DNA from: a candidate division WOR-3 bacterium
GTDB taxonomy: Bacteria > Hydrothermota > Hydrothermia > UBA1063
Assembly: GCA_039803545.1 (NCBI GenBank)
Contig: JBDRYS010000001.1
Coordinates: 747,866-811,865, forward strand
DNA length: 64,000 bases
Direction: 5' to 3'
The notes below the pieces were generated by a model. It worked only from the letters and a program-made list of their open reading frames with translations. It had not been told where the DNA came from and searched no databases. The translations under genes were made by a program, and so were the position numbers. The first letter of the stretch is position 1. Every line of letters begins with the position of its first letter. Positions 3,461 to 63,528 of this stretch are shown piece by piece.

Positions 3461-3488
3461 TTGATTTTTACAACCCCCTTATTATAAT
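3461..3488 (+). promoter_or_regulatory. Promoter of the K+ channel gene, predicted leaderless transcript
   Basis: TTGATT (3461-3466), 16-bp spacer, TATAAT (3483-3488), then seven bases and the ATG at 3496. Transcription would start at or next to the A of the start codon. No ribosome binding site is present. Confidence 0.7.
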
Positions 3489-3495
3489 TTGAAAT

Positions 3496-4482
3496 ATGAA
3501 AGGTGGACATACTGAACAGAGGAGAATTTTAGTCTTATTAGTGGGGATATTTTTGATTATTTCCCTTGGAACACTGGGCTACATCAAAATCGAAAATATG
3601 TCTCCCCTCGATGCACTATACATGGCAATCATAACAATTTCCACCGTTGGCTTCAAAGAGGTTCACCCATTGAGCGATACTGGGAAAATATTCACCATCC
3701 TATACATCATCACTGGAATTGCCTTTGTATCCTATACCCTCTTTACAGTTGGCGAACTTTTGTTTGAAACAACTTTTAGCAATTTACTTTTGAAAAGGAG
3801 GAAAGAAATAAAAATGGAAGGGCATCACATTATCTGTGGCTTTGGGAGGATAGGCAGCATAGTAGCAAAGGAACTTCATGGAAAGAATGAAAAATTCGTG
3901 GTCATTGAAAAGGACCCTGAAAAAATAAGAATATTGCAGGAAAAGGGATTTCCTTACATTGAAGGAGATGCCACGGAAGAGGAAACTCTACTCATGGCTA
4001 ATATAAAAAAGGCAAAGGGAATTGCTTGCACACTCACAGAAGATGCTGACAACTTATATGTGGCACTTACCGCAAGAGAGTTAAACCCTAACATTGTGAT
4101 CGTCTCAAGAGCCGAAAACGAGTCTTCAGTTAAAAAACTAATAAAAGCCGGGGCAAATAAAGTAATTACCCCCTACGAAGAAGGTGCAATAAAAATAGCA
4201 GAATACCTCACGAAGAGGGAAATTGTAGAGATTGTAGATTTTATAATTAATGCAGAACCAGTCCAATATGCAATAAAACAATTGGTTCTTGACAAACATC
4301 ACCCACTGGTTAATAAGACATTGAGGGAAGCAGGCTTGAGACAAAAACACGGACTTCTTGTGATCGGTATAAGAAGAGGGGAAAAAACGATCTTTAATCC
4401 ATCGCCTGATGAAGTTTTAAGAGAAAACGATGTACTTGTCGTGATTGGTGAAGCGGAAAAGCTAAAAGGGGAGAATCTTTGA
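3496..4482 (+). CDS. Two-TM potassium channel with RCK (TrkA-N/TrkA-C) domains
   Basis: This 328-residue protein resembles MthK-type channels. TM1 spans ~11-28, the pore helix and filter ~42-55 and TM2 ~65-88. A cytosolic RCK/TrkA-N Rossmann domain (~110-230, with GFGRIGSIV) and a TrkA-C domain (~255-325) follow. It should form a tetrameric inner-membrane K+ channel gated by ligands bound to the RCK ring. The filter reads T50-V-G-F-K54, so the second glycine of canonical TVGYG is lysine. That variant occurs in RCK channels of this type from memory, but it lowers certainty about ion selectivity. It has its own promoter and is not overlapped by plsY. Confidence 0.88.
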   Translation: MKGGHTEQRRILVLLVGIFLIISLGTLGYIKIENMSPLDALYMAIITISTVGFKEVHPLSDTGKIFTILYIITGIAFVSYTLFTVGELLFETTFSNLLLKRRKEIKMEGHHIICGFGRIGSIVAKELHGKNEKFVVIEKDPEKIRILQEKGFPYIEGDATEEETLLMANIKKAKGIACTLTEDADNLYVALTARELNPNIVIVSRAENESSVKKLIKAGANKVITPYEEGAIKIAEYLTKREIVEIVDFIINAEPVQYAIKQLVLDKHHPLVNKTLREAGLRQKHGLLVIGIRRGEKTIFNPSPDEVLRENDVLVVIGEAEKLKGENL

Positions 4483-4507
4483 ACGTTTGAAGGATATCGG
4501 ATAATAT
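4479..4507 (+). promoter_or_regulatory. Promoter of plsY-gpsA, predicted leaderless transcript
   Basis: TTGAAC (4479-4484, overlapping the stop codon of the channel gene), 17-bp spacer, TAATAT (4502-4507), six bases, ATG at 4514. No Shine-Dalgarno sequence is present. Confidence 0.72.
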
Positions 4508-4513
4508 TATCCT

Positions 4514-5113
4514 ATGCAACCCTTTACTTTGCCACTATATTTAATAGCAACTTTTTTGGTTTCGGGAATACCCTTTGGACTCTTGTATGTTAAAATCTTT
4601 CACAAAAAGGACGTTAGGACCTTCGGCAGCGGTAACATTGGAGCTACCAACGTTCTAAGAGCAGCAGGGGCTGGAATAGCCTTACTAACGGCTGTATCGG
4701 ATATTTTAAAATCTTTTATTCCCGTTATTCTTGCCAGAAAGTTTTTCTCTGATTCTTTATTTCCCTACTTAGTCTGGATGACTGCGGTCCTTGGGCACTG
4801 CTTTTCACCTTATCTTAAGTTAAAAGGAGGCAAGGGTGTATCCACCTTCTTCGGGGGGCTTTTAGCCCTTGAGCCACTTGCGGCACTCATAACCTTCGTA
4901 ATCTGGGTTCTTGTTATAGCTGTATCGCAATATGTATCCTTAGGATCAATGATAGCCTCTGCAGTGCCCTTCGTAACATTTCTCACAAGAGGAGCAACTA
5001 CAGACATTTTATTGATTTCCTTCTTACTACCGCTTGTTATTGTCTATCGCCATAAAGATAACATCCGAAGGCTCTTAAATAAAACAGAAAACAAATTAAG
5101 ATTAAAGCAATGA
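4514..5113 (+). CDS. plsY: Acyl-phosphate:glycerol-3-phosphate acyltransferase
   Basis: PlsY makes 1-acyl-glycerol-3-phosphate from acyl-phosphate and G3P at the inner membrane. The 199-residue protein is strongly hydrophobic with several membrane segments. It carries the three conserved PlsY motifs: SGIPFGLL near the N-terminus, GSGNIGATNVLR at ~35-46, and GHCFSPYLKLKGGKGVSTFFG split around residue ~95-115. It overlaps gpsA by four bases (ATGA), so the supply of G3P and its acylation are coupled. The start codon is fixed by the leaderless promoter geometry and lack of an upstream alternative. Confidence 0.95.
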   Translation: MQPFTLPLYLIATFLVSGIPFGLLYVKIFHKKDVRTFGSGNIGATNVLRAAGAGIALLTAVSDILKSFIPVILARKFFSDSLFPYLVWMTAVLGHCFSPYLKLKGGKGVSTFFGGLLALEPLAALITFVIWVLVIAVSQYVSLGSMIASAVPFVTFLTRGATTDILLISFLLPLVIVYRHKDNIRRLLNKTENKLRLKQ

Positions 5114-6099
5114 GTAAAGTTGCAATAATCGGTTCGGGGAGCTGGGGGTTAACTCTTGCAATTTTATTAAATGAAAAGGGGCATCAGGTATCGGTACTCT
5201 GCAGGCGCTTAGAGAAAAAGATTGAATTGGAAACAAAAAGAATGGATCCCAAAAGACTCGGTGAATATAAAATCCCCGATTCTATTCGATTCACTTACGA
5301 ACCTCAAGAAATAGCCGATTCTGAATACCTCATTTTTGCTGTACCTTCACAACATTTGAGGGATTTATTGATTAGAGTGGCCCCAAAACTCAACCCATCA
5401 AAAATCGTATCTGTGATCAAGGGAGTCGAGGCGAAAAGTCACAAAACACCTTCAGAAATTCTTAAAGAATTTTTCCCTTCGTCTTACATTGCCGTATTAA
5501 CAGGTCCATCCATTGCAAGAGAAGTGCTAAAGAAGATACCAACCTCTGTGGTTGTGGCATCCGAAAATATTGAATTCGCTAAGGAAATCCAGAATCTCTT
5601 CCACACGGGATATTTTAGAGTTTACTATTCATCTGATGTGAAGGGATGTGAACTCGGGGGCGCCGTAAAAAATGTAATTGCAATCGCCGCGGGAATCCTT
5701 GACGGCTTAGGTTTTGGGGCAAACACCAAGGGGGCCCTAATCGTGAGAGGCGCAAGGGAAATGATGAGGCTTGGTGAGAAATTGGGGGCAAATCCTCTCA
5801 CCTTTTCAGGCCTTTCCGGGATTGGGGACCTCATAACGACCTGCTTCTCACCCTTCTCAAGAAATAGAATAGTAGGTGAGGCCATCGCAAAAGGTAAAAA
5901 GCCCGAGGATGTGCTCAAAGAGATGGATATGGTGGCAGAGGGGCTTGAAACTTCCCATGTAATTTTGGAAATTGCACAAAAAGTTGGTGTTGAAGTCCCT
6001 GTAGTAGAATATGTCCATAAGATTTTGAACGGTGAAATATCTCCACAAGAGGCCATTAATGCAATACTAAACAGACCACCAAAACCTGAGTTCTATTAA
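5110..6099 (+). CDS. gpsA: NAD(P)+-dependent glycerol-3-phosphate dehydrogenase
   Basis: GpsA reduces dihydroxyacetone phosphate to sn-glycerol-3-phosphate for phospholipid synthesis. The 329-residue protein begins with the dinucleotide-binding motif IIGSGSWGLTLA and has the conserved GAVKNVIAIAAG stretch with the catalytic lysine, and KGALIVRGAREM in the C-terminal helical domain. Length and motifs are normal for the family. Its start overlaps the plsY stop by four bases, giving a two-gene phospholipid operon. Confidence 0.95.
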   Translation: MSKVAIIGSGSWGLTLAILLNEKGHQVSVLCRRLEKKIELETKRMDPKRLGEYKIPDSIRFTYEPQEIADSEYLIFAVPSQHLRDLLIRVAPKLNPSKIVSVIKGVEAKSHKTPSEILKEFFPSSYIAVLTGPSIAREVLKKIPTSVVVASENIEFAKEIQNLFHTGYFRVYYSSDVKGCELGGAVKNVIAIAAGILDGLGFGANTKGALIVRGAREMMRLGEKLGANPLTFSGLSGIGDLITTCFSPFSRNRIVGEAIAKGKKPEDVLKEMDMVAEGLETSHVILEIAQKVGVEVPVVEYVHKILNGEISPQEAINAILNRPPKPEFY

Positions 6100-6109
6100 T
6101 AATAACCCT

Positions 6110-6138
6110 TTGACTGAACAAGGCTTTAATTTTAAAAT
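6110..6138 (+). promoter_or_regulatory. Promoter of cysS, predicted leaderless transcript
   Basis: TTGACT (6110-6115), 17-bp spacer, TAAAAT (6133-6138), six bases, ATG at 6145. No Shine-Dalgarno sequence lies upstream of the ATG. Confidence 0.75.
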
Positions 6139-6144
6139 CAAGTT

Positions 6145-7509
6145 ATGGCAATCAAGATTTACAACACTCTGCGAAAAGATTACGAAGATTTTATTCCCCT
6201 TTCCGATTCAAAAGTAGGCATTTATATGTGCGGGATGACAGTTCAAGACAGGCCCCACTTAGGTCACATGAGAACATTCCTATTTGGAGATGTGTTAAGG
6301 AGATATTTAGAATACAAGGGCTACGAAGTCATCTACATACAAAATTTCACCGATATTGATGATAAGATAATACAGAGGTCCAAATCAGAAAACGTAGATT
6401 GGCGGGCTCTTGGGGATAAGTACGAACAAGAGTTTTTAAAAGCCGCAGAAGCACTCAATGTTAAGTTAGCCACTTACTATCCTAAGGCCACACAGTTTAT
6501 CCAGGAAATTATAGAACTCATCGAAATCTTAGTTCGTAAAGGATTCGCATATGAGTCTAATGGAAACGTATATTTCGAGGTAGCAAAATTCAAAGATTAC
6601 GGAAAACTATCGGGTAAAAACATAGAAGACCTTAAAGAATCTTATAGGATTGAACCAGATCCAAACAAAAGAAACCCAATGGACTTTGCTCTCTGGAAAG
6701 CCCACAAAGAAGGAGAACCCTACTGGTATTCACCATGGGGCAAGGGAAGGCCAGGGTGGCACATTGAATGTTCAGTAATGTCTACTCATTTCCTGGGACA
6801 GCCTTTTGATATCCATATGGGAGGCCAAGACCTCATATTCCCACACCATGAAGATGAAATAGCCCAATCGGAGGCTGCCTACGAACGAGAATTTGTAAAG
6901 TATTGGATTCACTCAGCACCAATGTTAATCAAAGGAGAAAAAATGTCCAAGTCTACAGGACTTTACTTCGCCATAAGCGACTTGCTGGAAAAGTATACTC
7001 CAGAAGCCATCAGACTTTTCATCTTACAAAAGCACTATCGATCTCCAGCGGAATATGTGCCTGATTACCTTGAAGAAGCAGAAAGGGCAATCGGTAGGCT
7101 AAAGAGTTTTCTCAATCAAGTTACACCTGCCGACGGGAAAGTAATCGGGGAAAAGGTAAAGGAGTTCGAAGAGGCAATGGAAGACGATTTAAATACCCCG
7201 AAGGCAATTGGAATCGTCTTCGAACTTCTAAAGGAAGGAAACGTTAAGCTACAGAAAGGTGAAAGTGCGGCCGATGAAGGAGCTACTATCCTATTTATTT
7301 TAGAAATCCTCGGTTTTCGCATCACCGACTTTACTAAGAAAAAGCTTGACACGGAAAAGATAAGCGAACTTGTCCGTTTAATTCTCGACGTAAGACAGGA
7401 ATTAAGAAAAACCAAAAACTTTGAGCTTGCAGATAAAATAAGAAGTGACCTTGAACGGTTGGGAATAAAGGTGAAAGATACCCGTGAGGGTACCATCTTC
7501 GAACTTTGA
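6145..7509 (+). CDS. cysS: Cysteinyl-tRNA synthetase
   Basis: This enzyme charges tRNA-Cys. The 454-residue protein has the class I signatures HLGH (38-41, HIGH motif) and KMSKS (266-270). Zinc ligands are Cys29 in YMCGMTV, the Cys in WHIECS, and the HHEDE region. The C-terminal DALR-like helical domain ends with the usual short basic tail ([15 protein letters not shown]). Start choice rests on the N-terminus [12 protein letters not shown] aligning with typical CysRS and on the leaderless promoter. It stands alone between two promoters. Confidence 0.97.
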
Positions 7510-7534
7510 TTGAAAAAGGTGAAGGATTTATAAT
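7506..7534 (+). promoter_or_regulatory. Promoter of the substrate-binding protein gene (with leader)
   Basis: TTGATT (7506-7511, overlapping the cysS stop), 17-bp spacer, TATAAT (7529-7534). Unlike its neighbours this gene has a short leader with a perfect AAGGAGGT (7545-7552) just before the ATG at 7556. Confidence 0.75.
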
Positions 7535-7555
7535 TTAACACAATAAGGAGGTAAA

Positions 7556-8536: not shown

Positions 8537-8567
8537 AAAATGGGGCCCTTTCGGGCCCCATTTTTTT
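8534..8567 (+). terminator. Intrinsic terminator between the substrate-binding protein gene and lnt
   Basis: GGGGCCC (8542-8548), loop TTTC, GGGCCCC (8553-8559), then a run of seven T (8561-8567). The run of A before the stem pairs with the T tract, so it could also work on the minus strand. The lnt start codon at 8570 follows the T tract by two bases. Confidence 0.9.
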
Positions 8568-8569
8568 CA

Positions 8570-10024: not shown

Positions 10025-10025
10025 A

Positions 10026-13265: not shown

Positions 13266-14700
13266 AGTTCTTCTCAAAGTAATAAGCGAAATTAAAGAGC
13301 AAAGGCTCTGAAAGTACCTGCCCCTCCACCTGAAAACCGAGGGGCAGGTTATTTTTTGTCCTACCCCATGGTATTGCCATTGAAGGAATACCTGCTAAAT
13401 TTGCATGGATGCTAAATAGATCAAGGTAATAAAGTTCCACCGGATCCTTAATTTCATCTACTTTCGGTGCAGGGAAAGGAGACACCGGAAGGATTATTAA
13501 ATTAACCTTCTTAAAAGCCTCATCGAGGTCATTCTTAATTAGCCTTCTCACTTTTAAGGCCTTTAAATAATAGGCGTCGTAATATCCGTGAGATAAAGCA
13601 AAGGTTCCGATTGCAATCCTCCTTTTCACCTCTGCACCAAAGCCACTGCTCCTTGTTGAATTGTAAAGGTCTTCTAAGTCTTCGGCCTTCTTTCTGTAAC
13701 CATACCGTATTCCATCAAATCTTGCAAGGTTAGAGGAAGCCTCCGACGTTGCGATAATTTGATACACCTCTACGGAATATTTCAAGTGGGGTAAGGGGAC
13801 TTCCACAACTTTAAAACCCACCTTAGAGAGAACTTCAACCAACTTAAAAAAGTTATCCCTCACTTCTTCGTCCATTCGGGCCTTTTTAACCAGGTCTGGA
13901 TAACCAAGGACTATCTCAGATGGGTTTATTTCTCTAAGAAGGGATTCTAAAGAGGGTGCTTCAACACTTAAGGAAGTGGAATCCTTTGGATCAAAACCCG
14001 AAATGGAGACATAAGCCCTGGCAAGGTCATCAACATTCCTTGCAATGGGACCAATTTGATCTAAGGAAGAAGCAAAGGCAACAAGGCCATACCGAGAAAC
14101 GGTCCCATAAGTGGGTTTCAAACCAAAAACACCGCAAAAGGAGGCAGGCAACCTAATGGAGCCGCCCGTATCGGAGCCGAGGGATACTACTACTTCTCCT
14201 GCGGATACACTGGCAGCAGAACCACTGGATGAACCACCCGCAAGATATTCAGGATTTACAGGATTTTTAGTTGGCCCATAAAAGGAATAGGTACCAAGGG
14301 CGCCCATAGCAAACTCATCCATATTGAGTTTTCCCATAACTATAGCACCATCCCGCAGCAATCTATCAACCACCGTTGCGTTGTAAAGAGAGATATAACC
14401 TGAAAGGATTCTGGAAGCGCAGGTAGTCCCAACGCCCTTTACGTTAATATTATCTTTAATTCCTACTGGAACACCGAAGAGTCTCGGGAGAACGCCTTCT
14501 TTTCTGTATTTTTGTAAATACCCTTCCAGTTCCCTTGCCCTCTGCAAAGCATACTCATCGAGAATGCTGATAAAGGTATTCAAAATCGGCTGATTTTCTC
14601 TAATAACTCTAAGATGTTCGTTTACAACTTCCGTTGGGCTCAGCTCACCGGCTAAATACTTTCTGTGTAACTCAGAAATTGAGAAAAAATGCCCTGGCAT
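13258..14700 (-). CDS. gatA: Aspartyl/glutamyl-tRNA amidotransferase subunit A
   Basis: GatA liberates ammonia from glutamine for transamidation of Glu-tRNA-Gln or Asp-tRNA-Asn. The 480-residue protein has the amidase triad: Lys82 (PVGIKDNINVKG), Ser157 (GGSSSGSAAS) and Ser181 (GSDTGGSIRLPASF). gatB lies 13.5 kb away and gatC is not in the window. The gene is monocistronic with a leaderless-type promoter. Its 3' end overlaps the stop of the convergent 1079-residue gene by 8 bp, and a terminator for that gene lies within gatA coding sequence. Stop codon is TAG. Confidence 0.96.
   Translation of the reverse strand: MPGHFFSISELHRKYLAGELSPTEVVNEHLRVIRENQPILNTFISILDEYALQRARELEGYLQKYRKEGVLPRLFGVPVGIKDNINVKGVGTTCASRILSGYISLYNATVVDRLLRDGAIVMGKLNMDEFAMGALGTYSFYGPTKNPVNPEYLAGGSSSGSAASVSAGEVVVSLGSDTGGSIRLPASFCGVFGLKPTYGTVSRYGLVAFASSLDQIGPIARNVDDLARAYVSISGFDPKDSTSLSVEAPSLESLLREINPSEIVLGYPDLVKKARMDEEVRDNFFKLVEVLSKVGFKVVEVPLPHLKYSVEVYQIIATSEASSNLARFDGIRYGYRKKAEDLEDLYNSTRSSGFGAEVKRRIAIGTFALSHGYYDAYYLKALKVRRLIKNDLDEAFKKVNLIILPVSPFPAPKVDEIKDPVELYYLDLFSIHANLAGIPSMAIPWGRTKNNLPLGFQVEGQVLSEPLLFNFAYYFEKNFI
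13316..13357 (+). terminator. Intrinsic terminator of the OB-fold gene, embedded in antisense gatA
   Basis: An 11-bp stem, ACCTGCCCCTC (13316-13326) with GAGGGGCAGGT (13339-13349), is followed by TATTTTTTG. It lies about 50 bases past the stop of the plus-strand gene and inside the conserved 3' coding part of gatA, so the same bases serve both. Confidence 0.75.
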
Positions 14701-14706
14701 ACTATA

Positions 14707-14735
14707 ATTTTAATCGAACGCCTGCCATTATTCAA
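14707..14735 (-). promoter_or_regulatory. Promoter of gatA, predicted leaderless transcript
   Basis: On the minus strand: TTGAAT (14735-14730), 17-bp spacer, TAAAAT (14712-14707), six bases, ATG at 14700. No Shine-Dalgarno sequence is present. The rest of the 182-bp divergent region holds the AOR promoter. Confidence 0.75.
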
Positions 14736-14827
14736 ACAACAAATTCAACTTCTATAGGGAAAATCTAATTAATTCCCATTTCCATCACCCTGTCTATCCC
14801 GATTTTCTCGCAGTAATCTGTGAAAAT

Positions 14828-14856
14828 TTGAACAAGTTAAGAATCTTCGTTATAAT
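14828..14856 (+). promoter_or_regulatory. Promoter of the AOR operon (with leader)
   Basis: TTGAAC (14828-14833), 17-bp spacer, TATAAT (14851-14856). The leader of about 20 nt carries AGGAGG (14870-14875), seven bases before the ATG at 14883. Confidence 0.78.
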
Positions 14857-14882
14857 TTCTTAACTAAACAGGAGGCTTCTTC

Positions 14883-16775: not shown

Positions 16776-16797
16776 GGGGGGGCCCGAAAGGGGCCCC
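16776..16797 (+). other. GC-only hairpin between the AOR gene and tsaB
   Basis: GGGGCCC (16779-16785) pairs with GGGCCCC (16791-16797) around a five-base GAAAG loop. No T tract follows on the plus strand. On the minus strand the stem is followed by a T-rich stretch. The tsaB ATG is only six bases past the stem, and the only purine-rich candidate ribosome site sits inside it. Confidence 0.7.
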
Positions 16798-28190: not shown

Positions 28191-28219
28191 ATTTTACATG
28201 ATTTTTTCAAGTCTTTCAA
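28191..28219 (-). promoter_or_regulatory. Promoter of the DUF3467-truA-...-PLD operon (with leader)
   Basis: On the minus strand: TTGAAA (28219-28214), 17-bp spacer, TAAAAT (28196-28191), then a ~20-nt leader with AGGAGGT before the ATG at 28169. It interleaves with the gatB promoter on the other strand, so the two polymerases could compete. Confidence 0.72.
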
Positions 28220-28233
28220 AAGACCTGTAAAAT
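28205..28233 (+). promoter_or_regulatory. Promoter of gatB, predicted leaderless transcript
   Basis: TTTCAA (28205-28210, weak -35), 17-bp spacer, TAAAAT (28228-28233), six bases, ATG at 28240. No Shine-Dalgarno sequence is present. Confidence 0.62.
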
Positions 28234-28239
28234 TTTTAC

Positions 28240-29664
28240 ATGCAGGAAAATTATTACACGCGGATAGGCCTTGAAATCCACATTCAGTTAAAAACAAAAA
28301 CAAAACTCTTCTGCGGATGCAAAAACGAGTATGGTGCCATCCCCAACACCAACGTCTGTCCCGTTTGCCTTGGCTACCCCGGAGTTCTTCCCGTGCTAAA
28401 TCAGGAAGCGGTGAAAATGGCCATCAAAGTAGCCCTTGCCCTCAACGCGAGAATCAACAAACGATCAAGATTTTACAGGAAAAACTACTTCTATCCCGAC
28501 CTTCCCAAGGGCTACCAAATTACCCAGTACAGCGAATCGATAGCAGAAGATGCCTTTTTGGAGATCACTGTTCACGACGAGTCTAAAAGAATTGAAATCG
28601 AACGCATGAATATTGAAGAGGAGGCCGCTCGCTCAATTCACACGCCCCAAGGTGAAGTTCTCCTCGATTTCAACCGTAGCGGAATTCCACTCCTCGAGAT
28701 AGTTACAAAACCCTGTATAAGTTCCCCCATTGAAGCAAAACTATTCTTGGAAAAGTTCCGCGATTATATAAGGTATTTAAAAATCTCTGATTGTGATATG
28801 GAGAAGGGAGAGCTAAGGGTGGATGCCAACATATCCCTTTCACTGGATCCAAATACTTACGGCACCAAGGTAGAACTCAAAAACCTCAACTCTTTTAAAG
28901 CCGTTTATGATGCATTGACTTTTGAAAAGGAGAGGCAGGAAAAACTATTAAAAGAAGGCAAGAAAATTCACCAAGAAACTCGAATGTGGGACGAATACTT
29001 AGGTGAATCAAGACCGATGAGGACCAAAGAAGAGAGTATGGATTACCGGTACTTCCCTGAACCCGACTTGCCCGTCTTGATCCTCGACGATAAATTCATC
29101 GAAGAGGTAAAGAGGGAGATGCCCGAATTACCCGACAAAAAATACGCAAGATATGTTGAAAATTACAAATTGTCGCCGGAACAAGCCAAGCTTATCGCCT
29201 TCGATAGGGAATATTCCGAATTTTTTGATAGGATCTCAAAGGAAGTAAAAGACAAGAAATTGGTGGCCAACTGGCTCACCGTGATTTTCCCTGCCTACAT
29301 CGGTAAAACCCACCGATTTGAAGACCTGGATCCTGTGGAATTTGTGAGACTCGCCCACGCCTTAGAAATTGGTGAAATAAACAACAACCAGGCAAAGGAG
29401 GCTCTTACAAGGTTCTTCGAAAAAGGTATTTCCATTTCTAAGAGCATTCAGGAATTTGAAGAATCTTCAAAGAAATTTGATGAAACGGAACTGGAAAAGG
29501 TTATCGATGAGGTATTGGAAGAACAAAGGGAACTGGTAGAAAAGTACCTCTCGGGTAAAACCGGTGTCTTTCAGGCCATCCTCGGCCAGTGTATGAAAAA
29601 ATTGAAGGGAAGCGGTGACCCTATCAAGGTGAAGGAAATCCTTGAAAGGAAACTGAAAGGGTAA
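28240..29664 (+). CDS. gatB: Aspartyl/glutamyl-tRNA amidotransferase subunit B
   Basis: GatB carries the kinase/transamidase site that turns mischarged Glu-tRNA-Gln or Asp-tRNA-Asn into the correct product, with GatA supplying ammonia. The 474-residue protein has the GatB signature CPVCLGYPGVLPVLN at ~36-50. GIPLLEIVTKP and MRTKEESMDYRYFPEPDLP follow, and the YqeY-like C-terminal tail domain (~325-474) is present. It is monocistronic and far from gatA. Confidence 0.96.
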   Translation: MQENYYTRIGLEIHIQLKTKTKLFCGCKNEYGAIPNTNVCPVCLGYPGVLPVLNQEAVKMAIKVALALNARINKRSRFYRKNYFYPDLPKGYQITQYSESIAEDAFLEITVHDESKRIEIERMNIEEEAARSIHTPQGEVLLDFNRSGIPLLEIVTKPCISSPIEAKLFLEKFRDYIRYLKISDCDMEKGELRVDANISLSLDPNTYGTKVELKNLNSFKAVYDALTFEKERQEKLLKEGKKIHQETRMWDEYLGESRPMRTKEESMDYRYFPEPDLPVLILDDKFIEEVKREMPELPDKKYARYVENYKLSPEQAKLIAFDREYSEFFDRISKEVKDKKLVANWLTVIFPAYIGKTHRFEDLDPVEFVRLAHALEIGEINNNQAKEALTRFFEKGISISKSIQEFEESSKKFDETELEKVIDEVLEEQRELVEKYLSGKTGVFQAILGQCMKKLKGSGDPIKVKEILERKLKG

Positions 29665-30105: not shown

Positions 30106-30134
30106 TTGACAAAACGGAGCATATAGTATACAAT
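30106..30134 (+). promoter_or_regulatory. Promoter of the small gene-dinB operon, predicted leaderless transcript
   Basis: Consensus TTGACA (30106-30111), 17-bp spacer, TACAAT (30129-30134), seven bases, ATG at 30142. The -10 element lies inside a 14-bp perfect palindrome. Confidence 0.75.
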
Positions 30135-30140
30135 TGTATA
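30127..30140. promoter_or_regulatory. Palindromic candidate operator over the -10 element of the dinB operon
   Basis: TATACAATTGTATA is a perfect 14-bp inverted repeat that overlaps the -10 element and ends two bases before the start codon. A dimeric repressor bound here would block transcription. The position upstream of a damage-type polymerase suggests a LexA-like or other damage-responsive regulator; none is encoded nearby. Confidence 0.55.
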
Positions 30141-30141
30141 T

Positions 30142-30387
30142 ATGGAGAACCTCAACCGGAAGGTCAATGTGATAGCTCGGTTCAACGGAACAGGGGAGGT
30201 ATATCCCATCTATATTGAATTTTCCGGTTCCCTCGTTAAACTCAGAAAGCCCGATGCCGTCTGGAAAGAGAGGGTCGGAAGGAATCTCATCACCCGGTTC
30301 TCCTCCTCCGATGGTGCAAACAGGTATATCCTCGCCTTTAACCATGAGACCCTTGAATGGAAATTGGAGGGGATAATCTATGAGTAG
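30142..30387 (+). CDS. Small beta-rich protein encoded with dinB (unknown function)
   Basis: This 81-residue soluble protein has no signal peptide. Its pattern of alternating hydrophobic strands (VNVIARF, VYPIYIEFSG, ANRYILAFN, WKLEGIIYE) suggests a small beta-barrel. It ends eight bases inside dinB, so it is almost surely translationally coupled. Small beta domains such as DUF6504 sit beside Y-family polymerases in other bacteria; a similar role here is only a guess. I do not recognise the family. It is leaderless and under the palindromic operator. Confidence 0.7.
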   Translation: MENLNRKVNVIARFNGTGEVYPIYIEFSGSLVKLRKPDAVWKERVGRNLITRFSSSDGANRYILAFNHETLEWKLEGIIYE

Positions 30388-32021: not shown

Positions 32022-32867
32022 TTAGAACTTTATTACCTTATACTGCCTATTAACCCCTTCTCCCCTCACATCGACGAAATAGACCCCACTCTTCAGTTCT
32101 TTCATAGAGAATTCATTTTTATAAGTGCCGTTTACCATGCCGCTGTAAAGATCCCTAATTTTTCTTCCGTCAGCACCGTAGAGAGAGATGTTGATATTTA
32201 AAGCTCTATTTACTGAATATTCCACAGGAAGGCTGTTAAAAACAATCTCAGGTACCCTAAGGTCAAAATTCACCCTTTCAGGGACCGAGACTACAAGGGG
32301 TCCAAAGTAGGCATTGTCGATATATACTGAATCCTCTGTGGTAGCATACTTATAGATCCTGAAATCGTACTTAAAGGTAACGGCACTATCAGCAGGCCTT
32401 ACAGTTTTAAAACTAATTTCTTGCCACTCTGAAGAGTTAGCGCTATAACCACTGTAGACTGCACTACCCACATTATTTCCAGCAGAATCTTGCCAGTAGC
32501 AATAAAGCCTCCCACCAATATTTGTTGAGTTCTCTTTAACCCATATGCTTACAAGAAAAGTATCATTTGCAAAAGGTAAGGTATCTATCCTGTTAACGTA
32601 GTGGTAAAAACTCGCATCATAGCCGGATGTATCTCCTACCACAGCTATTTTTACTCCAAAACCTTCATAACCAGGAACCTTCGCTACTGACCCTGAGACA
32701 CCACCTCCGGTACCTCTTATGTATAGATGCCAGTATTTCGGCATAGAATCTTGTCCAGTTGATGATGTATCCCACAGCTCAAAGCCTGGATTCAATAGCA
32801 TATTATAACCCTCTGCCCAAAGGGGCACTGCAAGTGCTAACCCAATAACTACTAACAACTTTTTCAT
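32022..32867 (-). CDS. Secreted protein with carbohydrate-binding-like domain and type IX-like C-terminal module
   Basis: This ~281-residue exported protein has a signal peptide (~1-18). A beta-sandwich (~20-190) follows, with NPGFELWD, WVKENS and VYIDNAYFGP, resembling CBM4_9-like jelly-rolls. The last ~75 residues form a FlgD/type IX-like module (ISLYGADGRKIRDLYSG, LKSGVYFVDVRGEG, VIKF). It is probably a surface protein binding sugars or anchored to the envelope. The ATG at 32867 has AGGAGGT just upstream; a GTG two codons before is less likely. Monocistronic with its own promoter and terminator. Confidence 0.8.
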   Translation of the reverse strand: MKKLLVVIGLALAVPLWAEGYNMLLNPGFELWDTSSTGQDSMPKYWHLYIRGTGGGVSGSVAKVPGYEGFGVKIAVVGDTSGYDASFYHYVNRIDTLPFANDTFLVSIWVKENSTNIGGRLYCYWQDSAGNNVGSAVYSGYSANSSEWQEISFKTVRPADSAVTFKYDFRIYKYATTEDSVYIDNAYFGPLVVSVPERVNFDLRVPEIVFNSLPVEYSVNRALNINISLYGADGRKIRDLYSGMVNGTYKNEFSMKELKSGVYFVDVRGEGVNRQYKVIKF

Positions 32868-41758: not shown

Positions 41759-42895
41759 TTAAATTCTCCCGAGATACAGGCAATTATTAACTTTATCCAC
41801 GATACAAATAGAATCCTTTTCCTCCTTCGCCTTTAAAAGGGCAAAATCTGCTAAAGCATAAAAGAAGAACTCATCCTGATTTGTTTCCAGGCTGCTCACA
41901 AGAACACAACCTACAGAAAAAGTTGATTTGCTTTGTAAGTCCATTTGAGAATTCACATACTCTTCTTTTATTTCTCTGAAGGCATTAACTATTCTACCAG
42001 TATCAGACATTCCGACAAGAATCACACCAAATTCGTCTCCCCCGACACGGCCTACGTAATCCGTTGCGCGGAACCTTTTGGCCAATATCTTGCCAAAATT
42101 CTTTAAATATTCATCACCTTTTAAGTGGCCAAAATAATCGTTAATCTATTTAAAGTTATCAAGGTCAATCATACAAAAGACCAAACTATTATCTCTGTTA
42201 GCCGATTTCTGTATTTCTATTTTGAGTGTGCTGACAAGGGAATTCCGATTCATAACACCAGTCAAGCCATCGGTTTCAGCTATCTTCTTAAGAAGCAAAG
42301 TATTCAAGAAATTCTCCCTTTCCAATCTCTCTAAAACATATGCCACAAAAAGCCCACCCACATAAGTGGAAACGAGAAAGAAGTTGTTATTGATAAAAAC
42401 TTCCTTTGGTAATGGATTCAATTTTAAACTAACAAACTGGAAGCCAACTAAAAGAATAAGACCGTTTATCGCTGCGTAACCAAACCGTAATCTTAAAAGA
42501 GTAAAGTTGAAAAACAAAACGAGGGTCAACCCCTGAGAATACAAGTACATTGAAGGGGGTTTTATTACTGCGAGCATTGCGAGAATGCCAAATCCTCCAA
42601 TTAAAACAGCAACTGAAGCAAGGAAATCAAAATGCACCTTGAGAGGCTTTAAAAGACTCAACAGTACAATGATAATTACGATTGGAATAACGAATTCAAA
42701 CCTGATTCTCCAGATTATATCCTTTAAGGGCCCGACTATGACTGAATCGAGCAAGGCAAAGATCGCATACAAAAAAATTCCGAAAAGAAGCGCAAATCGG
42801 AAAATTGGCAAGGATTTTGTAGAATATTCTTCCAGAAACTTTTGCTCGAGGGCTTTTTCCCTAAACTTTAGAGATAAAAACTTCAACTCTGCCAT
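41759..42895 (-). pseudogene. Membrane diguanylate cyclase (GGDEF) interrupted by an in-frame TAG
   Basis: The frame reads as one ~378-residue protein. About six membrane segments (~20-200) are followed by a GGDEF domain with DGLTGVMNR, DLDNFK, then TAG, then INDYFGH and VGGDEFGVIL. The TAG (42148-42146) replaces a variable residue in the conserved metal-loop motif DNFK-x-IND. Everything after it remains in frame and intact. TAG is a real stop elsewhere here (gatA, purN, dinB), so this is most likely a nonsense mutation or sequencing error. The start at 42895 fits a promoter ten bases upstream. Confidence 0.8.
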
Positions 42896-42905
42896 AGCAG
42901 GCATA

Positions 42906-42934
42906 ATTTTAAACGAGTAAGTATTTAGATTCAA
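42906..42934 (-). promoter_or_regulatory. Promoter of the interrupted diguanylate cyclase gene
   Basis: On the minus strand: TTGAAT (42934-42929), 17-bp spacer, TAAAAT (42911-42906), ten bases to the ATG at 42895. The near-leaderless geometry picks this ATG over upstream alternatives. Confidence 0.62.
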
Positions 42935-43034
42935 TCTGGCCAAACAAACTAAGGAAATTGTTCTCAATTTTAGTTAAAAGCAGTCACTAAAATGCTTTGA
43001 TTTTAAAAAGGCTTTAAAGTCTCCCGTTTATCCC

Positions 43035-48779: not shown

Positions 48780-48780
48780 G

Positions 48781-50307: not shown

Positions 50308-50346
50308 GGATTATAAGTATTTCTGGCATATTCCGACAACATTCCG

Positions 50347-50352
50347 TAAAAT
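50347..50352 (+). promoter_or_regulatory. Probable -10 element of the D-amino-acid transaminase gene
   Basis: TAAAAT (50347-50352), six bases, ATG at 50359. No clear -35 at 17 bp; TGGCAT is the best match. The spacing matches the leaderless genes. Confidence 0.45.
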
Positions 50353-50358
50353 TTTCTT

Positions 50359-51144
50359 ATGGCAAAAAGAATCTACTTTATCGATGGTAAGTTTAAAAGA
50401 AATCCCCTTTCAACGATTGAAGATAGGGGATTCTTTTTCGCCGATAGCATATACGAGGTAATCCGAGCAAGAAATGGAAAACCTTTCTTCTTAGAAGAGC
50501 ATCTCACGAGGCTGGAGAAAGGGCTGAAGGAGATAAAGATTGACCTCAAGCTGGATAGCGGTTACCTTGAGGAGGTGATTAAAAAATCGCTAAAAAAACT
50601 TAAGAAAAAAGAAGCGGCAATATACTTGCAGATAACGAGAGGAAAGGAGCCAAGAAGCCACTTACCAAGAAGAAAAACAAAACCCACAATAATCATAATA
50701 ACCAGCGAATTCAGGCCGCTTGCACCAAGGCTCTTTAAAGAAGGGGTGTCCCTAATACTCTACCCCGATATCCGATGGGCCCGATGTGATATAAAAACCA
50801 CTATGCTTTTACCCAATGTACTTGCAAAAATTGAAGCAAAGGAAAGAGGATTTTTTGATGCCCTGTTTTACAAAAATGGCTATATTACCGAGAGCACCTC
50901 TTCTTCCTTCTTTGGAATTATTGGCGGGAAGCTCTTTACTCACCCTGCCACCCATGACATACTTCCTTCTATAACAAGGGAAAAGGTACTTCAAATCGCG
51001 AAGAACCTTGAAATACCGATAGAAGAAAGACCTTTAGCCCTTGAAGAGATCAGAAAACTTGAGGGGGCATTCCTCGCTGGCACAACCTACGATATTCTTC
51101 CTGTAAAAAGGATTGAGGAAGTTGAAATTCCGTTGAGCTCATAG
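50359..51144 (+). CDS. dat: D-amino-acid transaminase (class IV aminotransferase)
   Basis: This 261-residue PLP enzyme resembles D-alanine transaminase: PLP Lys146 in RCDIKTTMLLPNVLAK, the substrate-carboxylate R-x-H motif at 99-101 (RSHLP), and TESTSSSFFGI. It would make D-glutamate or D-alanine for peptidoglycan. It is about 20 residues shorter at the C-terminus than usual; the frame stays open for 18 more codons after its TAG (TSQIQIEYAKLLEKLSL), so a nonsense truncation is possible. No Shine-Dalgarno sequence; leaderless geometry. Confidence 0.85.
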   Translation: MAKRIYFIDGKFKRNPLSTIEDRGFFFADSIYEVIRARNGKPFFLEEHLTRLEKGLKEIKIDLKLDSGYLEEVIKKSLKKLKKKEAAIYLQITRGKEPRSHLPRRKTKPTIIIITSEFRPLAPRLFKEGVSLILYPDIRWARCDIKTTMLLPNVLAKIEAKERGFFDALFYKNGYITESTSSSFFGIIGGKLFTHPATHDILPSITREKVLQIAKNLEIPIEERPLALEEIRKLEGAFLAGTTYDILPVKRIEEVEIPLSS

Positions 51145-51251: not shown

Positions 51252-51257
51252 TATAAT
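51252..51257 (+). promoter_or_regulatory. Probable -10 element of the GGDEF-STAND operon
   Basis: TATAAT (51252-51257) lies ten bases before the ATG at 51268. A -35 is not clear (TTGAAC at 51225 gives a 21-bp spacer). No ribosome site is present, so the leader is a few bases at most. Confidence 0.4.
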
Positions 51258-51267
51258 AAGCCAGATT

Positions 51268-57400: not shown

Positions 57401-57573
57401 AAGGTATAGCTGACACCTTTTCCTACCTCGGAAGAAGCGATGTATCTCTTAAAATTCTGGATTACCTTCTAAAATATTGCAGGAAGCACTCTTTTACTCA
57501 GGACATTGACCGCCTCCAGAGAAAAATTGAACGGATTAGAAAACTTTTCCCAGTTGACTCTTCACAAAAATAA
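54409..57573 (+). CDS. GGDEF - STAND-type AAA ATPase - TPR signalling protein (second)
   Basis: This 1054-residue paralogue of the previous protein has the same order. Its GGDEF domain is canonical (G-G-D-E-F at 87-91) with an intact RxxD site (R78-D81). Walker A is GEVGVGKT at 201-208 and Walker B is YIDDIHWID. TPR repeats follow the ATPase (~590-930). Its ATG follows the first gene's stop directly, with an AAAGGA site inside that gene. The pair likely arose by tandem duplication. The likely output is c-di-GMP made under control of ATPase and TPR sensing, possibly of a protein ligand. Confidence 0.87.
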   Translation: MISETMKNFVDDLTGALARGAIYSLLEQEIKRIKRYGGKSSLLFIDLDNFKALNDLHGHLEGDKALVSFVQLLKNTLRESDTITRYGGDEFIVLLPNTPLESAESVAERIIKNLQKENSEISCSIGIVEIPTHGTETEILIEKADKAMYRAKQTGKGRFLVYIEETLYPKIPSKIFVGRQKEKAKLTHLLKENYSIILIKGEVGVGKTRFALESLNLLEDTKILSTQCYGSLSEIPYVPFQELIKKYREKNEIGFREIYSKLDPYQKQALNPIIPDLTQPQAADIGVFKFFETFMQLLEEIASNKQLIVYIDDIHWIDSSSANLINYIVRNMPNNIKILGTARTEELERSKVKEILTKLSDEKLLTELEVLPLDEASTFELVESILQASVNEDLKKLVYQKTGGNPLFVEETIKQLFDRGHIVYEDDEWKLKDISTNFLPETVEVLIKNKLKKFSGEKVLEVAAIIGQEFHIDLLASVTNLNRGYIYEVINKLLKENLIEPLGEDYFAFKEGLIRDAILSEISEAKKRYISKTILEVLENKLPSFSGKEELCAYHAWRAQEKEKVKFYSKHAADKLKKNFAYDEAIKFLQWYIEVEENDAEREKAFTEYVTLLSFKGELKRAIQLLRSYIENNKVTALSYRKLAELLIESGDPKGALEAIERALELEESADSLVLKAWILKRQFKIQESYNLLENLLNRKDLTIDEKTLADAYTVQALNLMDLNQVEKALELLDKAEELRNKLQNIRGLGSVCVNRALVLSRIGKYEETLKEYDRAEFYYRKAGYKPGLITVLNNKASIYLDLRKFNEALDNFKKAATESKKIFDRHLLALALNNISVTLRYMEYHEEALKAIQEAYEVASELGMKDALISIRRNMAYSYAVGFKNLDKAIPIISEVLEEIGGPSKTYASLLVYLQAIEIFLIARDYNKVKELFDALNKVIDNSVYDEIKIGAYSTEMAFKLYLGQREDFKGASQKALSILEKADPHLRPILWISFLEGIADTFSYLGRSDVSLKILDYLLKYCRKHSFTQDIDRLQRKIERIRKLFPVDSSQK

Positions 57574-57582
57574 CACTAATAT
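57554..57582 (+). promoter_or_regulatory. Promoter of the ARPP-1 gene, predicted leaderless transcript
   Basis: TTGACT (57554-57559, inside the end of the second GGDEF-STAND gene), 17-bp spacer, TAATAT (57577-57582), six bases, ATG at 57589. No ribosome site. It is therefore transcribed separately as well as by read-through. Confidence 0.75.
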
Positions 57583-57588
57583 TTAACT

Positions 57589-58503
57589 ATGAAACCAATC
57601 GAAATATGGCCATTTAAAACTTTAAAAGTTGGTAGTCCATTTTTCATACATAACGTTAAAATTTACCCTGTAGAAGGACAACTGGGGCACGATGGCTTTA
57701 CCACTCTCGAGGAAGCAATTAAAGAGAACCATATCGTTCTCAAGGATATTTACGGTGTTGACCAAATATCCATTCATAACAGTGGAGGAAGTCCTGTCTT
57801 TGCCATTGACGGTGAAGAACTTCTCGGAGCAAGGCAAAACCGGATCATAAATGTGGATGCATTTATCGAGCCTCAGAGGGAATATGTGGTTCCGGTTACC
57901 TGCATTGAACAACACCGGTGGTCTGGAAGTCCCATTTTCAGCGAAGGTGGATTTACAATAACCCCCTCCCTAAGAAGTACCTTAGCTCAAACCGTCAAAA
58001 CCTCCCTCGAAAAAAAGCAGGGATTTAAGAGCAACCAGTCACTAATCTGGTCACAGATCGACAGCACCCTCAAAGCAACAAAGATAAGTAGTATGACCAG
58101 TTCCTTCCATGACATTTACAAATCCCTTAATGATGTGATTGAAGAATTTATGGAAGGATTTGACACCATCGAAAATTCCATCGGATTTTTAGCATACGTA
58201 AAGGATGAATTCATAGGATGCGACATCTTCGGTTCAAACTCGACCTACAGAAAATTCGAGAAAAAATTGTTAAAAAGTTACGTTCTCGATGGATACATCC
58301 GGAGATATGTTAAAGGTCCCGCTTTGCCCGCATCGCCTGAAGAGGTAATGAACCTCGTGGGCGAAACAACGGTAAAAAAACATAAATCGCCGACAGAAGG
58401 GGAAGTTTTAATAGGAGGCAAAGAAGGCCTAATTACAAAGATATTCCACCTCCAAGGTAATCTCTTACATGCAGCTGCTTTCCCCGTTGGAACAAGCTCT
58501 TGA
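57589..58503 (+). CDS. ARPP-1 domain protein (DUF6569-like)
   Basis: This 304-residue protein has the ARPP-1 pattern: FAIDGEELLGARQNRIINVD at ~72-91, VPVTCIEQHRWSG at ~102-114, and QSLIWSQID further on. ARPP-1 was named for its association with ADP-ribosylglycohydrolase and rhodanese-phosphatase domains in other genomes. Its biochemical role is not established. It has its own leaderless promoter just after the GGDEF-STAND pair, 15 bases past the stop. A functional link to them is only suggested by position. Confidence 0.65.
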   Translation: MKPIEIWPFKTLKVGSPFFIHNVKIYPVEGQLGHDGFTTLEEAIKENHIVLKDIYGVDQISIHNSGGSPVFAIDGEELLGARQNRIINVDAFIEPQREYVVPVTCIEQHRWSGSPIFSEGGFTITPSLRSTLAQTVKTSLEKKQGFKSNQSLIWSQIDSTLKATKISSMTSSFHDIYKSLNDVIEEFMEGFDTIENSIGFLAYVKDEFIGCDIFGSNSTYRKFEKKLLKSYVLDGYIRRYVKGPALPASPEEVMNLVGETTVKKHKSPTEGEVLIGGKEGLITKIFHLQGNLLHAAAFPVGTSS

Positions 58504-58510
58504 GGTTTTA

Positions 58511-59014: not shown

Positions 59015-59274
59015 AAAAGTAAACCCAATGCAACACCTGCCAGATCATAAATAAGGTCTTTGAAACTGAAAAAGGTCTTCTTAACTTTTTTGTCGTAAAC
59101 TTCTTTTCCCACAGATAGAGTCACAACAATAGCAGCGGAATATCTCCTGTCTATACCTGCCTGCATCGACGACTTAGTCAAAACATAAGCGGTTGCAAAA
59201 TGCCTGACCTTATCTTTCGCCCACCACGGGTCACTTTGAGCAAATAAAACTACGCAAAGAAGCAGGCTACCCAT
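59011..59274 (-). CDS. YfiM/DUF2279-like small envelope protein
   Basis: This 87-residue protein has an N-terminal hydrophobic segment (~1-13) and a DUF2279/YfiM-like core: DKVRHFATAYVLT, VGKEVYDKK and DLIYDLAGVALGLLL. Family members are small envelope proteins of unknown role. It overlaps the nitrilase gene by eight bases and the Nudix gene by four, so it is translated in a coupled series. Confidence 0.7.
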   Translation of the reverse strand: MGSLLLCVVLFAQSDPWWAKDKVRHFATAYVLTKSSMQAGIDRRYSAAIVVTLSVGKEVYDKKVKKTFFSFKDLIYDLAGVALGLLL

Positions 59275-61217: not shown

Positions 61218-62127
61218 AAAGTTCCTCCATCCTGGTGATTAGCTCATATATCATCTGATTTAAGGGAATATCGATTCCATGCTTCTTTGCTAAACGAAGA
61301 AGGTATCCATTTATGTAATCAATCTCGGTTTTTTTCTTCTTTTCAAGATCTTGAAGCATAGAACACTTGTTCTCTGAAGTTGCCTTTATAACTGATTTCA
61401 AATCTTCCAGTACTTGTGATGGACTTAATGAAATACCCTCGTAAGATAACACCTTTAGGGCCTCATTAATCAAACCGAGTACTGTTTCTGTATGTAACAT
61501 TTTGATGAGATAACCATTCTTCACCTTTAAAATCGAGGCAAGGGGATTTATAACGCTGTTTATAACAAGCTTTTCGTACAAAACAGTCATAGCCCCAAAA
61601 GAAACGGTAGCAGGTATCCCTGATGAGTTTAATAGTTCTGCAAATTTCTGCATAGATTCTCGGGTCGCAGTGAGGGACGTTACAACATTTTCTACATTGC
61701 CATCACTTACATTTCTTATTTTGTGCAAATCAAAGGCATAAAGGCCTTCCCTTATGGAAAGGATTAAGTGATCCTCACCAAACATCTGAGAGGCCTTAAA
61801 GTGAGATTCAATGCCATTCTGAACAGTCACTATGTAATTGAAATTAAAATGCCTTTCCTTTAGGTCGCCAAGAATTTGAAGTGCCTCTCTCGTTTTGGTC
61901 GCAAGGATGAAATAATCTGTATCGATCTCCATTAAATCTTCGTAAACATAGCAAGGAACTTTGATCACATAACGTTTATCCTTCTGAAAATATTCAATCC
62001 CTTCAACTTCTATCAATCGCTTATTGGACCTCTTGCTAACAATGGCTTCAACTGTATTCCCCGCTAAGGCGAGCTTCGATATAAGATACCCTCCAACTGA
62101 ACCCACACCGAGAACAATAAATTTCAT
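61204..62127 (-). CDS. panE: Ketopantoate reductase family protein (PanE/ApbA-like)
   Basis: This 307-residue NADP-dependent reductase has the Rossmann motif VLGVGSVGGYL, the VQNGIES substrate-side motif, the catalytic Lys region (YEKLVINSVINPLASI) and a C-terminal helical domain with EIDYINGYL. Ketopantoate reduction for pantothenate/CoA synthesis is most likely, but other 2-keto acid reductases share the fold. Overlaps both neighbours. Confidence 0.82.
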   Translation of the reverse strand: MKFIVLGVGSVGGYLISKLALAGNTVEAIVSKRSNKRLIEVEGIEYFQKDKRYVIKVPCYVYEDLMEIDTDYFILATKTREALQILGDLKERHFNFNYIVTVQNGIESHFKASQMFGEDHLILSIREGLYAFDLHKIRNVSDGNVENVVTSLTATRESMQKFAELLNSSGIPATVSFGAMTVLYEKLVINSVINPLASILKVKNGYLIKMLHTETVLGLINEALKVLSYEGISLSPSQVLEDLKSVIKATSENKCSMLQDLEKKKKTEIDYINGYLLRLAKKHGIDIPLNQMIYELITRMEELYGAH

Positions 62128-63014
62128 ATTACAACCTTAAGTGAGGCAGGCTTAACGGTAATCTTTATATTTCTCAGATTTTGTGCAAGTTCGCCATCTA
62201 ATTGAAGATTAAACGGATTATTGGACCTTACAGTAATCACATCTGACTTTAAGTATGTAACCTCTGGAAGGGTGACGTGTCTTCCTTTAAAAGCTTTGTA
62301 AAAATTAGTGAAAAACCTCATCGGTCTTAAAGGCCCTATGATGGAAATATCCAGCTTACCGTCCCTTAAACTTGCCTTAGGGAACAATCTGAACCCGCCT
62401 CCGAGATATTGCCCATTACCCACGTTAAAGAGCAAAAATCTGCCAGAAAGGGATATTTCGCCATTATTCAAAAAGACTTCCAATTCCGTACCTTTGAATT
62501 GCAAAAAGGTAAGCAAAACTGCGCTTGTATAAAGAAAATCCCCTTTAAGTAGCTTGATTTTCTTCATGTTATTGAGGACTTCTGAATCAAAGCCTATCCC
62601 CATACCGTTAATGAAATACCTTTTTATATTCTCGCCTTCTAAAAGCCCCACATCGATGCTGAGCGTCCTCTCAGAAAGTAAATGTTTTTCTAAAATGGTA
62701 TCATATTTTTGGCGAGGGTAAAAAAATTTGACAAAATCATTCCCTGTTCCAAGAGGTAACGGTAGGATAGGAAGCTCACTTCCTACAAGGGCTTGTGCCA
62801 CCTCATTTACCGTACCATCGCCCCCCAAAACCAAAATCTTTTCGAACTTTCCAGAATCCTTAATCTCTTTTGCCATTCGCGTTGCCTCACCGGGAGCTTT
62901 TGTTATGAACACTTCATAGGCTAATCCCAATTTTCTAATAATCTTTTCAACCTCTGGAAGCTTTGTAAGAGCATTCCCCCTACCTGCTATTGGATTAACA
63001 ATTAGAGCAATCAT
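62124..63014 (-). CDS. Diacylglycerol kinase family lipid kinase (DagK/YegS-like)
   Basis: This 296-residue soluble lipid kinase has the N-terminal VNPIAGRG, catalytic-loop GGDGTVNEVAQAL at ~65-77, PLPLGTGNDF and the C-terminal beta domain. It probably phosphorylates diacylglycerol or a related lipid. It overlaps its OmpA-like and PanE-like neighbours by four bases each. Confidence 0.9.
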   Translation of the reverse strand: MIALIVNPIAGRGNALTKLPEVEKIIRKLGLAYEVFITKAPGEATRMAKEIKDSGKFEKILVLGGDGTVNEVAQALVGSELPILPLPLGTGNDFVKFFYPRQKYDTILEKHLLSERTLSIDVGLLEGENIKRYFINGMGIGFDSEVLNNMKKIKLLKGDFLYTSAVLLTFLQFKGTELEVFLNNGEISLSGRFLLFNVGNGQYLGGGFRLFPKASLRDGKLDISIIGPLRPMRFFTNFYKAFKGRHVTLPEVTYLKSDVITVRSNNPFNLQLDGELAQNLRNIKITVKPASLKVVI

Positions 63015-63493
63015 TTGACCCTTATAATGATTAAATCCTTCTCACCCGTTTTATTTATACGCGCGAAGACCTTATCTACATTCAGCCCCTGTGAAATTAG
63101 TTGCCTTTTTATAGCAAGAGCTCTATTAACTTGCAATTGGCCACCCGGGAAAAGAACAATTTCGATGGTATCATAAGGGATCGCGGAAAGGGATCTGGAG
63201 ATTTCTTCAAGACGCGATATAGCGCTCCTTGTTAGCCTATCGGAATTTTTCACAAAAAAATCCTCAATTTTGTATTTTACCTCATAGGGCAAATTTACTG
63301 TCCTTTCGGTTTTCCGAACTTCCGATATACCTTTGGGCAACAGCTTAAGTAAACTATCCCTCAACACTTGGTTTTCTTTGGTCAAAGTTTCAAGCCGATT
63401 GATTTCGGGAATATATTTAAATTGGTAAAAGTAAAGAAAGTACCCCAAAAGGCCAACGGTCGCTACAAAAAAAAACCATCCAAGCTTTTTCAT
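63011..63493 (-). CDS. Inner-membrane anchored OmpA-like domain protein
   Basis: This ~160-residue protein has one membrane anchor (~4-22), a short coiled coil (~27-45) and a C-terminal OmpA/MotB-like domain (~75-160; FFVKNSDRLTRSAISRLEEI, then NRALAIKRQLISQGL). It may hold the envelope to peptidoglycan, but the usual peptidoglycan-binding residues are not all clear. The ATG at 63493 follows the promoter by six bases; codons upstream of it lie in the -10 region and are not used. First gene of the seven-gene operon. Confidence 0.68.
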   Translation of the reverse strand: MKKLGWFFFVATVGLLGYFLYFYQFKYIPEINRLETLTKENQVLRDSLLKLLPKGISEVRKTERTVNLPYEVKYKIEDFFVKNSDRLTRSAISRLEEISRSLSAIPYDTIEIVLFPGGQLQVNRALAIKRQLISQGLNVDKVFARINKTGEKDLIIIRVK

Positions 63494-63499
63494 AGCAAA

Positions 63500-63528
63500 A
63501 TTATACATAAACATAATGGGTCAATCAA
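63500..63528 (-). promoter_or_regulatory. Promoter of the OmpA-like-to-Nudix operon, predicted leaderless transcript
   Basis: On the minus strand: TTGATT (63528-63523), 17-bp spacer, TATAAT (63505-63500), six bases, ATG at 63493. It sits back to back with the rlpA promoter. Confidence 0.78.

Follow-up and report, generated by a model that had tools for sequence, protein, structure and literature searches.

The window analysed here, a stretch of 64,000 nucleotides from a bacterium of the candidate phylum WOR-3 (Hydrothermota), carries a number of genes whose -10 box lies almost at the start codon, as would be expected for leaderless mRNAs. An original prediction had listed seven such promoters, with a -35 box, a spacer of 17 bp, a -10 box and a gap of 6 or 7 bp (the base pairs between the box and the start codon), and all seven were located base by base as claimed, that of the OmpA-like operon provided that its third ATG is the start. 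The -35 box was TTGAnn in six of them and TTTCAA in gatB. On the plus strand, the plsY promoter (4479..4513; PF02660) consists of TTGAAC (4479-4484) and TAATAT (4502-4507), spacer 17, with a gap of 6 to the ATG at 4514, and the cysS promoter (6110..6144; PF01406) of TTGACT (6110-6115) and TAAAAT (6133-6138), with the same spacer and gap, before the ATG at 6145. The gatA promoter (14701..14735, minus strand; PF01425) has TTGAAT (14735-14730), spacer 17, TAAAAT (14712-14707) and a gap of 6 to the ATG at 14700. For ARPP-1 (57554..57588, plus strand; PF20208), TTGACT (57554-57559) is followed at spacer 17 by TAATAT (57577-57582) and, after 6 bp, by the ATG at 57589.

The gatB promoter (28205..28239, plus strand; PF02934) contains TTTCAA (28205-28210), spacer 17, and TAAAAT (28228-28233), with a gap of 6 to the ATG at 28240. 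It overlaps a divergent, leadered promoter (28191..28219, minus strand) of a DUF3467 gene (PF11950), composed of TTGAAA (28219-28214) and TAAAAT (28196-28191), with a gap of 21 and a Shine-Dalgarno (SD) site. The two promoters interlock over 28191-28239, so that each -35 box lies between both -10 boxes, and this stretch is largely conserved in the WOR-3 bacteria UBA5631 and UBA1063.

The promoter of the OmpA-like operon (63494..63528, minus strand) has TTGATT (63528-63523), spacer 17, TATAAT (63505-63500) and a gap of 6 to the third ATG, at 63493. If the start of the longest open reading frame (ORF), at 63514, were used, the -10 box would fall within the ORF (63493-63514, minus strand); the promoter predicts 63493 as the true start. 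No Pfam family matched the ORF at 63011-63493. The dinB operon promoter (30106..30141, plus strand) has TTGACA (30106-30111), spacer 17, TACAAT (30129-30134) and a gap of 7 to the ATG at 30142 of a small ORF that precedes dinB (PF00817). Its -10 box is covered by a perfect 14-bp palindrome, TATACAATTGTATA (30127-30140), a possible operator for a damage-response repressor.

Two further genes fit as had been proposed: a K+ channel gene (3461..3495, plus strand; PF07885, PF02254), with TTGATT (3461-3466), spacer 16, TATAAT (3483-3488) and a gap of 7 to the ATG at 3496, and dat (50347..50358, plus strand; PF01063), with TAAAAT (50347-50352) at a gap of 6 from the ATG at 50359 and without a clear -35 box. 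Gaps of 9-10 had been claimed for three more genes. A gap of 9 was found for the HAD gene (3320..3357, minus strand; TTGAAG 3357-3352, TATAAT 3334-3329; PF13419) and for rlpA (63542..63579, plus strand; TTGACA 63542-63547, TATCAT 63565-63570; PF03330), which are either leaderless or carry a leader of 2-3 nt. The claim was not reproduced for the third, a broken GGDEF gene, whose start is uncertain. The GGDEF protein (41759-42967, minus strand) is split across two ORFs, the upstream one stopping inside the domain (profile positions 1-44 of 161) and the downstream one bearing the GGDEF motif; since the domain is divided between two ORFs, the gene looks broken.

In contrast, other genes of the window have similar boxes followed by a leader with an SD site, as had also been noted. 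These are AOR (14828..14882, plus strand; TTGAAC 14828-14833, TATAAT 14851-14856, gap 26, SD AGGAGG; PF01314), a substrate-binding protein (7506..7555, plus strand; TTGATT 7506-7511, TATAAT 7529-7534, gap 21, SD AAGGAGGT; PF09084), the DUF3467 gene described above, and the gene at 32022 (gap 23, SD present). For pdxS, the assignment to this set requires that translation begin at its second ATG (50255). The gene at 32022-32867 (minus strand) encodes a secreted protein with a weak match to PF18962, a type IX secretion C-terminal sorting domain (E = 2e-4, below the family cut-off).

The frequency of near-start boxes was determined in 806 kb, half of the source genome with the window included (1.67 Mb in four contigs, 99% complete). 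Start codons were picked by coding score, blind to upstream signals. This yielded 646 genes, of which 250 were operon-first, separated from the preceding gene by 40 bp or more, and 321 operon-internal. A TATAAT-like box was defined as TAnnnT in which two or all three of the middle bases agree with TAA, and chance levels were taken from 200 dinucleotide shuffles of the upstream regions. A box at gap 6 was found for 33 of the 250 operon-first genes, whereas the shuffles averaged 1.5 and did not exceed 6. Gaps 7, 8 and 9 accounted for 8, 6 and 12 genes, against about 1.5 each by chance. After background subtraction, boxes at gaps 6-9 belong to about 53 of the 250 operon-first genes, which corresponds to 21% of these and to about 8% of all genes, and it is to these proportions that the term 'widespread' in the original prediction applies. 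The gap, said to be fixed at 6-7 bp, does peak at 6 but is not strict, having a shoulder at 7-9.

The peak at gap 6 was lacking at operon-internal genes (4/321), at ATGs within genes and at intergenic ATGs that are not starts. When TTGANN-N(16-18)-TATAAT-N6-ATG was searched genome-wide, 12 occurrences were found and none for the pattern read backwards; TAWAAT-N6-ATG occurred 134 times, against 40 backwards. Moreover, TTGA at a spacer of 16-18 bp was present in 10 of the 33 gap-6 promoters (background 4%), in all ten at exactly 17. The upstream regions contain about 65% A+T, and an artefact of base composition, or of starts being picked near AT-rich DNA, might be suspected. However, starts were chosen from coding score alone, the shuffles, the two kinds of control ATG and the backwards patterns did not reproduce the peak, and the signal is strong in a relative of 55% GC. 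An artefact is, in our view, the least probable of the explanations considered.

We compared these genes with the others for SD sites, defined as a match of at least 4 bases. Only 8% of the genes with a box at gaps 5-8 had an SD site; the share was 58% among the remaining operon-first genes (Fisher p = 1e-10) and 69% among the operon-internal ones. The 16S rRNA ends in GGATCACCTCCTTT, with an intact anti-SD, and a full-length gene for ribosomal protein S1 is present, indicating that the SD route is intact. The best reading is thus that one genome has two initiation classes, a leaderless one that would comprise about 21% of operon-first genes and an ordinary SD class beside it. The claim of two classes, mutually exclusive with respect to the SD site, was borne out, as was the expectation of a gap-6 peak above that of shuffled sequence, with a low SD content (33/250 at gap 6 in the 806 kb; SD in 8% of the genes with a box at gaps 5-8).

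The T/A-rich box could instead be a translation enhancer, bound by S1 or acting as another AT-rich site, as proposed for Bacteroidota; S1 is present here, and AT-rich sites ahead of start codons have been described in other phyla (PMC5397173). But the box has the -10 consensus with TTG 17 bp upstream, its position is precise to one base, and it is absent at operon-internal genes, which makes an enhancer very improbable.

The bases around the start codon were also examined. RNA starts are usually preceded by a pyrimidine. Among the gap-6 genes, 29 of 33 (88%) had a pyrimidine at -1, compared with 51-54% of other operon-first genes, as expected if the RNA starts at the start codon. TTG was the start codon of none of the 71 genes with a box, against 11 of 179 elsewhere (p = 0.037), which would follow from a requirement for a purine as the first RNA base. 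These signals bear on whether the near-start boxes might give short-leadered mRNAs, with a 5' untranslated region of about 1-5 nt, and not strictly leaderless ones. The shoulder at gaps 7-9 and a peak at gap 8 in the related family f9 speak for short leaders, while the sharp peak at gap 6 and the pyrimidine at -1 speak against them; we consider short leaders unlikely as the general rule, although they carry more weight than the other alternatives.

Conservation was assessed in partial genome samples of eight relatives, small in size, whose genes were called in the same way. A peak of boxes at gaps 6-9 was observed not only in relatives from the genus, the family and the order of the window's organism but also in further families of its class. 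Among reciprocal-best orthologues with an operon-first position in the two genomes compared, 6 of 6 box genes remained box genes (G001, G004 and G020; protein identity 39-88%), their class being kept though the surrounding DNA had diverged. In UBA5631 and UBA1063, gatB likewise has TAAAAT at gap 6, and their GatB proteins are 72-73% identical to that of the window; identity to GatB of a Candidatus Hydrothermota bacterium is 57%. These identities place the organism in WOR-3 (Hydrothermota). The strongest signal was that of G019, a genome of family f9 with 55% GC, in which 31 of 56 operon-first genes (about 55%) had a box at gaps 6-9; in this family the peak lies at gap 8. No peak appeared in G040, from another class of the phylum, in a small sample of 47 operon-first genes. 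A first, exact pattern had suggested that leaderless genes are absent from f9 and from some other families. The signal-blind gene calling overturned this for f9, whose leaderless genes the exact pattern missed because the gap is 8 and the -35 region different.

From these results, the near-start boxes very probably reflect leaderless transcription. This reading is supported by several independent signals in the DNA, each directly visible: the position of the box and its spacing, the enrichment of the -35 box, the lack of SD sites, the pyrimidine before the start, the confinement to operon-first genes and the conservation in orthologues. The promoters would be of the housekeeping (sigma-70) type, with 6-8 bp between the -10 box and the start codon. 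The first nucleotide of the RNA would most likely coincide with that of the start codon or lie no more than 1-3 nt away. The mRNAs would then be leaderless, the A of the ATG being their predicted first base. Because these genes are without SD sites, ribosomes are proposed to bind the 5'-terminal AUG or GUG directly; the genome also has an ordinary leadered class, whose SD sites match the intact anti-SD of the 16S rRNA.

Some points weigh against leaderless transcription as the explanation. The exact 5' ends of the RNAs are deduced from the DNA, as is the mode of translation, and genes with a gap of 9 may carry leaders of 2-3 nt. A box near the start is not in itself proof of the main promoter. 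In the case of plsY, another gene ends 31 bp upstream, and the two might be co-transcribed as well. Finally, about half of the genome was covered, with a home-made gene caller that uses a simple start model.

The classes had also been thought to be split by function, which the comparisons made here did not support. Neither codon adaptation, with ribosomal genes and those for RNA polymerase and chaperonin as the reference (Mann-Whitney p = 0.13), nor N-terminal hydrophobicity (p = 0.45) differed between them. When 30 leaderless and 30 SD-led genes were annotated with Pfam, a tendency emerged, an impression without statistics. Genes for repair, RNA modification and cofactors appeared among the leaderless ones, which included uvrB, mutS, a pseudouridine synthase, folD, ispG, cmk and ribD. 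Abundant metabolic proteins, chaperones and outer-membrane receptors appeared among the SD-led ones, which included GroES, pyruvate kinase, pyruvate:ferredoxin oxidoreductase, an aldehyde ferredoxin oxidoreductase and TonB-type receptors. Yet the leaderless class also holds membrane proteins, transporters and secreted peptidases, and an assignment of initiation classes by gene function appears doubtful.

When the leaderless promoters of this genome were aligned on the -10 box, a C appeared 14 bp upstream of the box (about -26), in addition to TTG at spacer 17, in 27 of 47 promoters (background 16%, p = 2e-10). The same C was enriched at the boxes of leadered genes (41/103, p = 1e-8) and reached 64% in the pooled relatives of the order (G001, G004 and G005). 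It was seen in G000, G001, G004 and G005 and, in the window, for example at cysS, ARPP-1, the OmpA-like operon, the dinB operon, dat, the HAD gene and rlpA.

A different element was found in family f9. In essentially all of the 31 aligned leaderless promoters of G019, a C lies 6 bp upstream of the box (about -18), its frequency of 0.95 with pseudocounts being the maximum possible for 31 sequences. It is accompanied by CC at -15/-14, and no -35 box was visible in this alignment. The C at -18 also preceded the box of three tRNA genes; at boxes of non-leaderless genes of G019, which are few, it was not enriched (2/6). Counting the gap-8 TAKAAT pattern in eight f9 genomes (G019, G025, G028, G030, G032, G034, G036 and G038) gave 969 occurrences with the C and 180 without it, against 36 and 128 backwards, that is, C in 95% after subtraction. 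RpoD regions 2.4-4.2, aligned for G005, G019 and G032 (the loci of G000, G001 and G020 gave no full-length ORF), revealed no obvious cause for the f9 element; in region 4.2 of f9 the RERVRQ core is kept and its surroundings differ.

Both elements are statistical. It seems to us an evenly balanced proposition that housekeeping promoters of this WOR-3 class have a third, lineage-specific element in the spacer, namely a C near -26 beside the -35 box in the order of the window and a near-invariant C near -18, with CC at -15/-14, apparently replacing the -35 box in f9; contacts of RNA polymerase would then have been rewired within one class. Nothing relevant to a conserved spacer cytosine was found in the open-licence literature. 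The one related element encountered, the Z element, is contacted by residues Y47/R48 of beta-prime (review PMC10911233); it serves as a lead to a reader of the spacer cytosines and not as a test.

Elsewhere in the window, the hairpin GGGGCCC...GGGCCCC occurs twice (8540-8564 and 16779-16797). An ORF with its longest-ORF start at 8540 passes through the first copy, and the gene therefore probably begins later, the coding score favouring 8771. No Rfam elements were found in the window.

The phenomenon and its spacing rule are already known. Of 953 bacterial genomes studied by Zheng et al. 2011 (PMC3160421), 207 were predicted to contain leaderless genes, with TANNNT roughly 12 bp ahead of the start codon; WOR-3 is not named there. 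The WOR-3 genes resemble the TA-led genes of that study in having the first T of the box at -12 for gap 6, in occurring beside SD-led genes and in being operon-proximal only, and their box agrees with the TAtaaT of its medium-GC groups. According to the part of PMC9581028 that reports on GeneMarkS-2 (Lomsadze 2018), leaderless transcription is predicted in 21.6% of bacterial genomes, a near-start promoter signal being used, as here, for predicting starts. In Deinococcus radiodurans, TANNNT lies 6-7 bp upstream of about one-third of ORFs, its promoter role was shown by reporters and quantitative PCR, mutation of the motif reducing both RNA and protein, and no bias to specific pathways was seen (PMC12340547, 2025). 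In Deinococcus-Thermus the -10 box often acts without a -35 box (PMC12340547), whereas the WOR-3 genome has TTG enriched at spacer 17 (none being seen in G019 of f9), the C at -26 and a box nearer to full TATAAT. Mycobacterium likewise has leaderless and leadered SD mRNAs in one genome; its leaderless class comes from 5'-end mapping (PMC3898074, PMC4633059), that of WOR-3 from sequence only. No report of leaderless genes in WOR-3 or candidate phyla was found in the open-licence literature and, as far as this search went, the WOR-3 class is apparently unreported.

The finding would place WOR-3, a little-studied phylum known almost exclusively through metagenome assemblies, among the groups that have leaderless genes. 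The class extends over several families, with a share that varies from about 21% here to about 55% in the sampled f9 genome G019. As had been anticipated, the gap rule is of use in annotation and can correct start codons in these genomes, for example from the first to the third ATG in the OmpA-like operon. The cultured WOR-3 strain sy37, which grows at 70 C and has a GC content of 60.6% (PMC12285271), makes 5'-end mapping feasible. With the start codon as a marker of where the RNA probably starts, promoter architecture becomes legible from the sequence alone, for bacteria that few are able to culture. It was through such start-codon-anchored reading that the cytosines at -26 and -18 came to light, the leaderless genes anchoring the RNA start, and spacer elements that differ between lineages may outweigh the leaderless finding itself.

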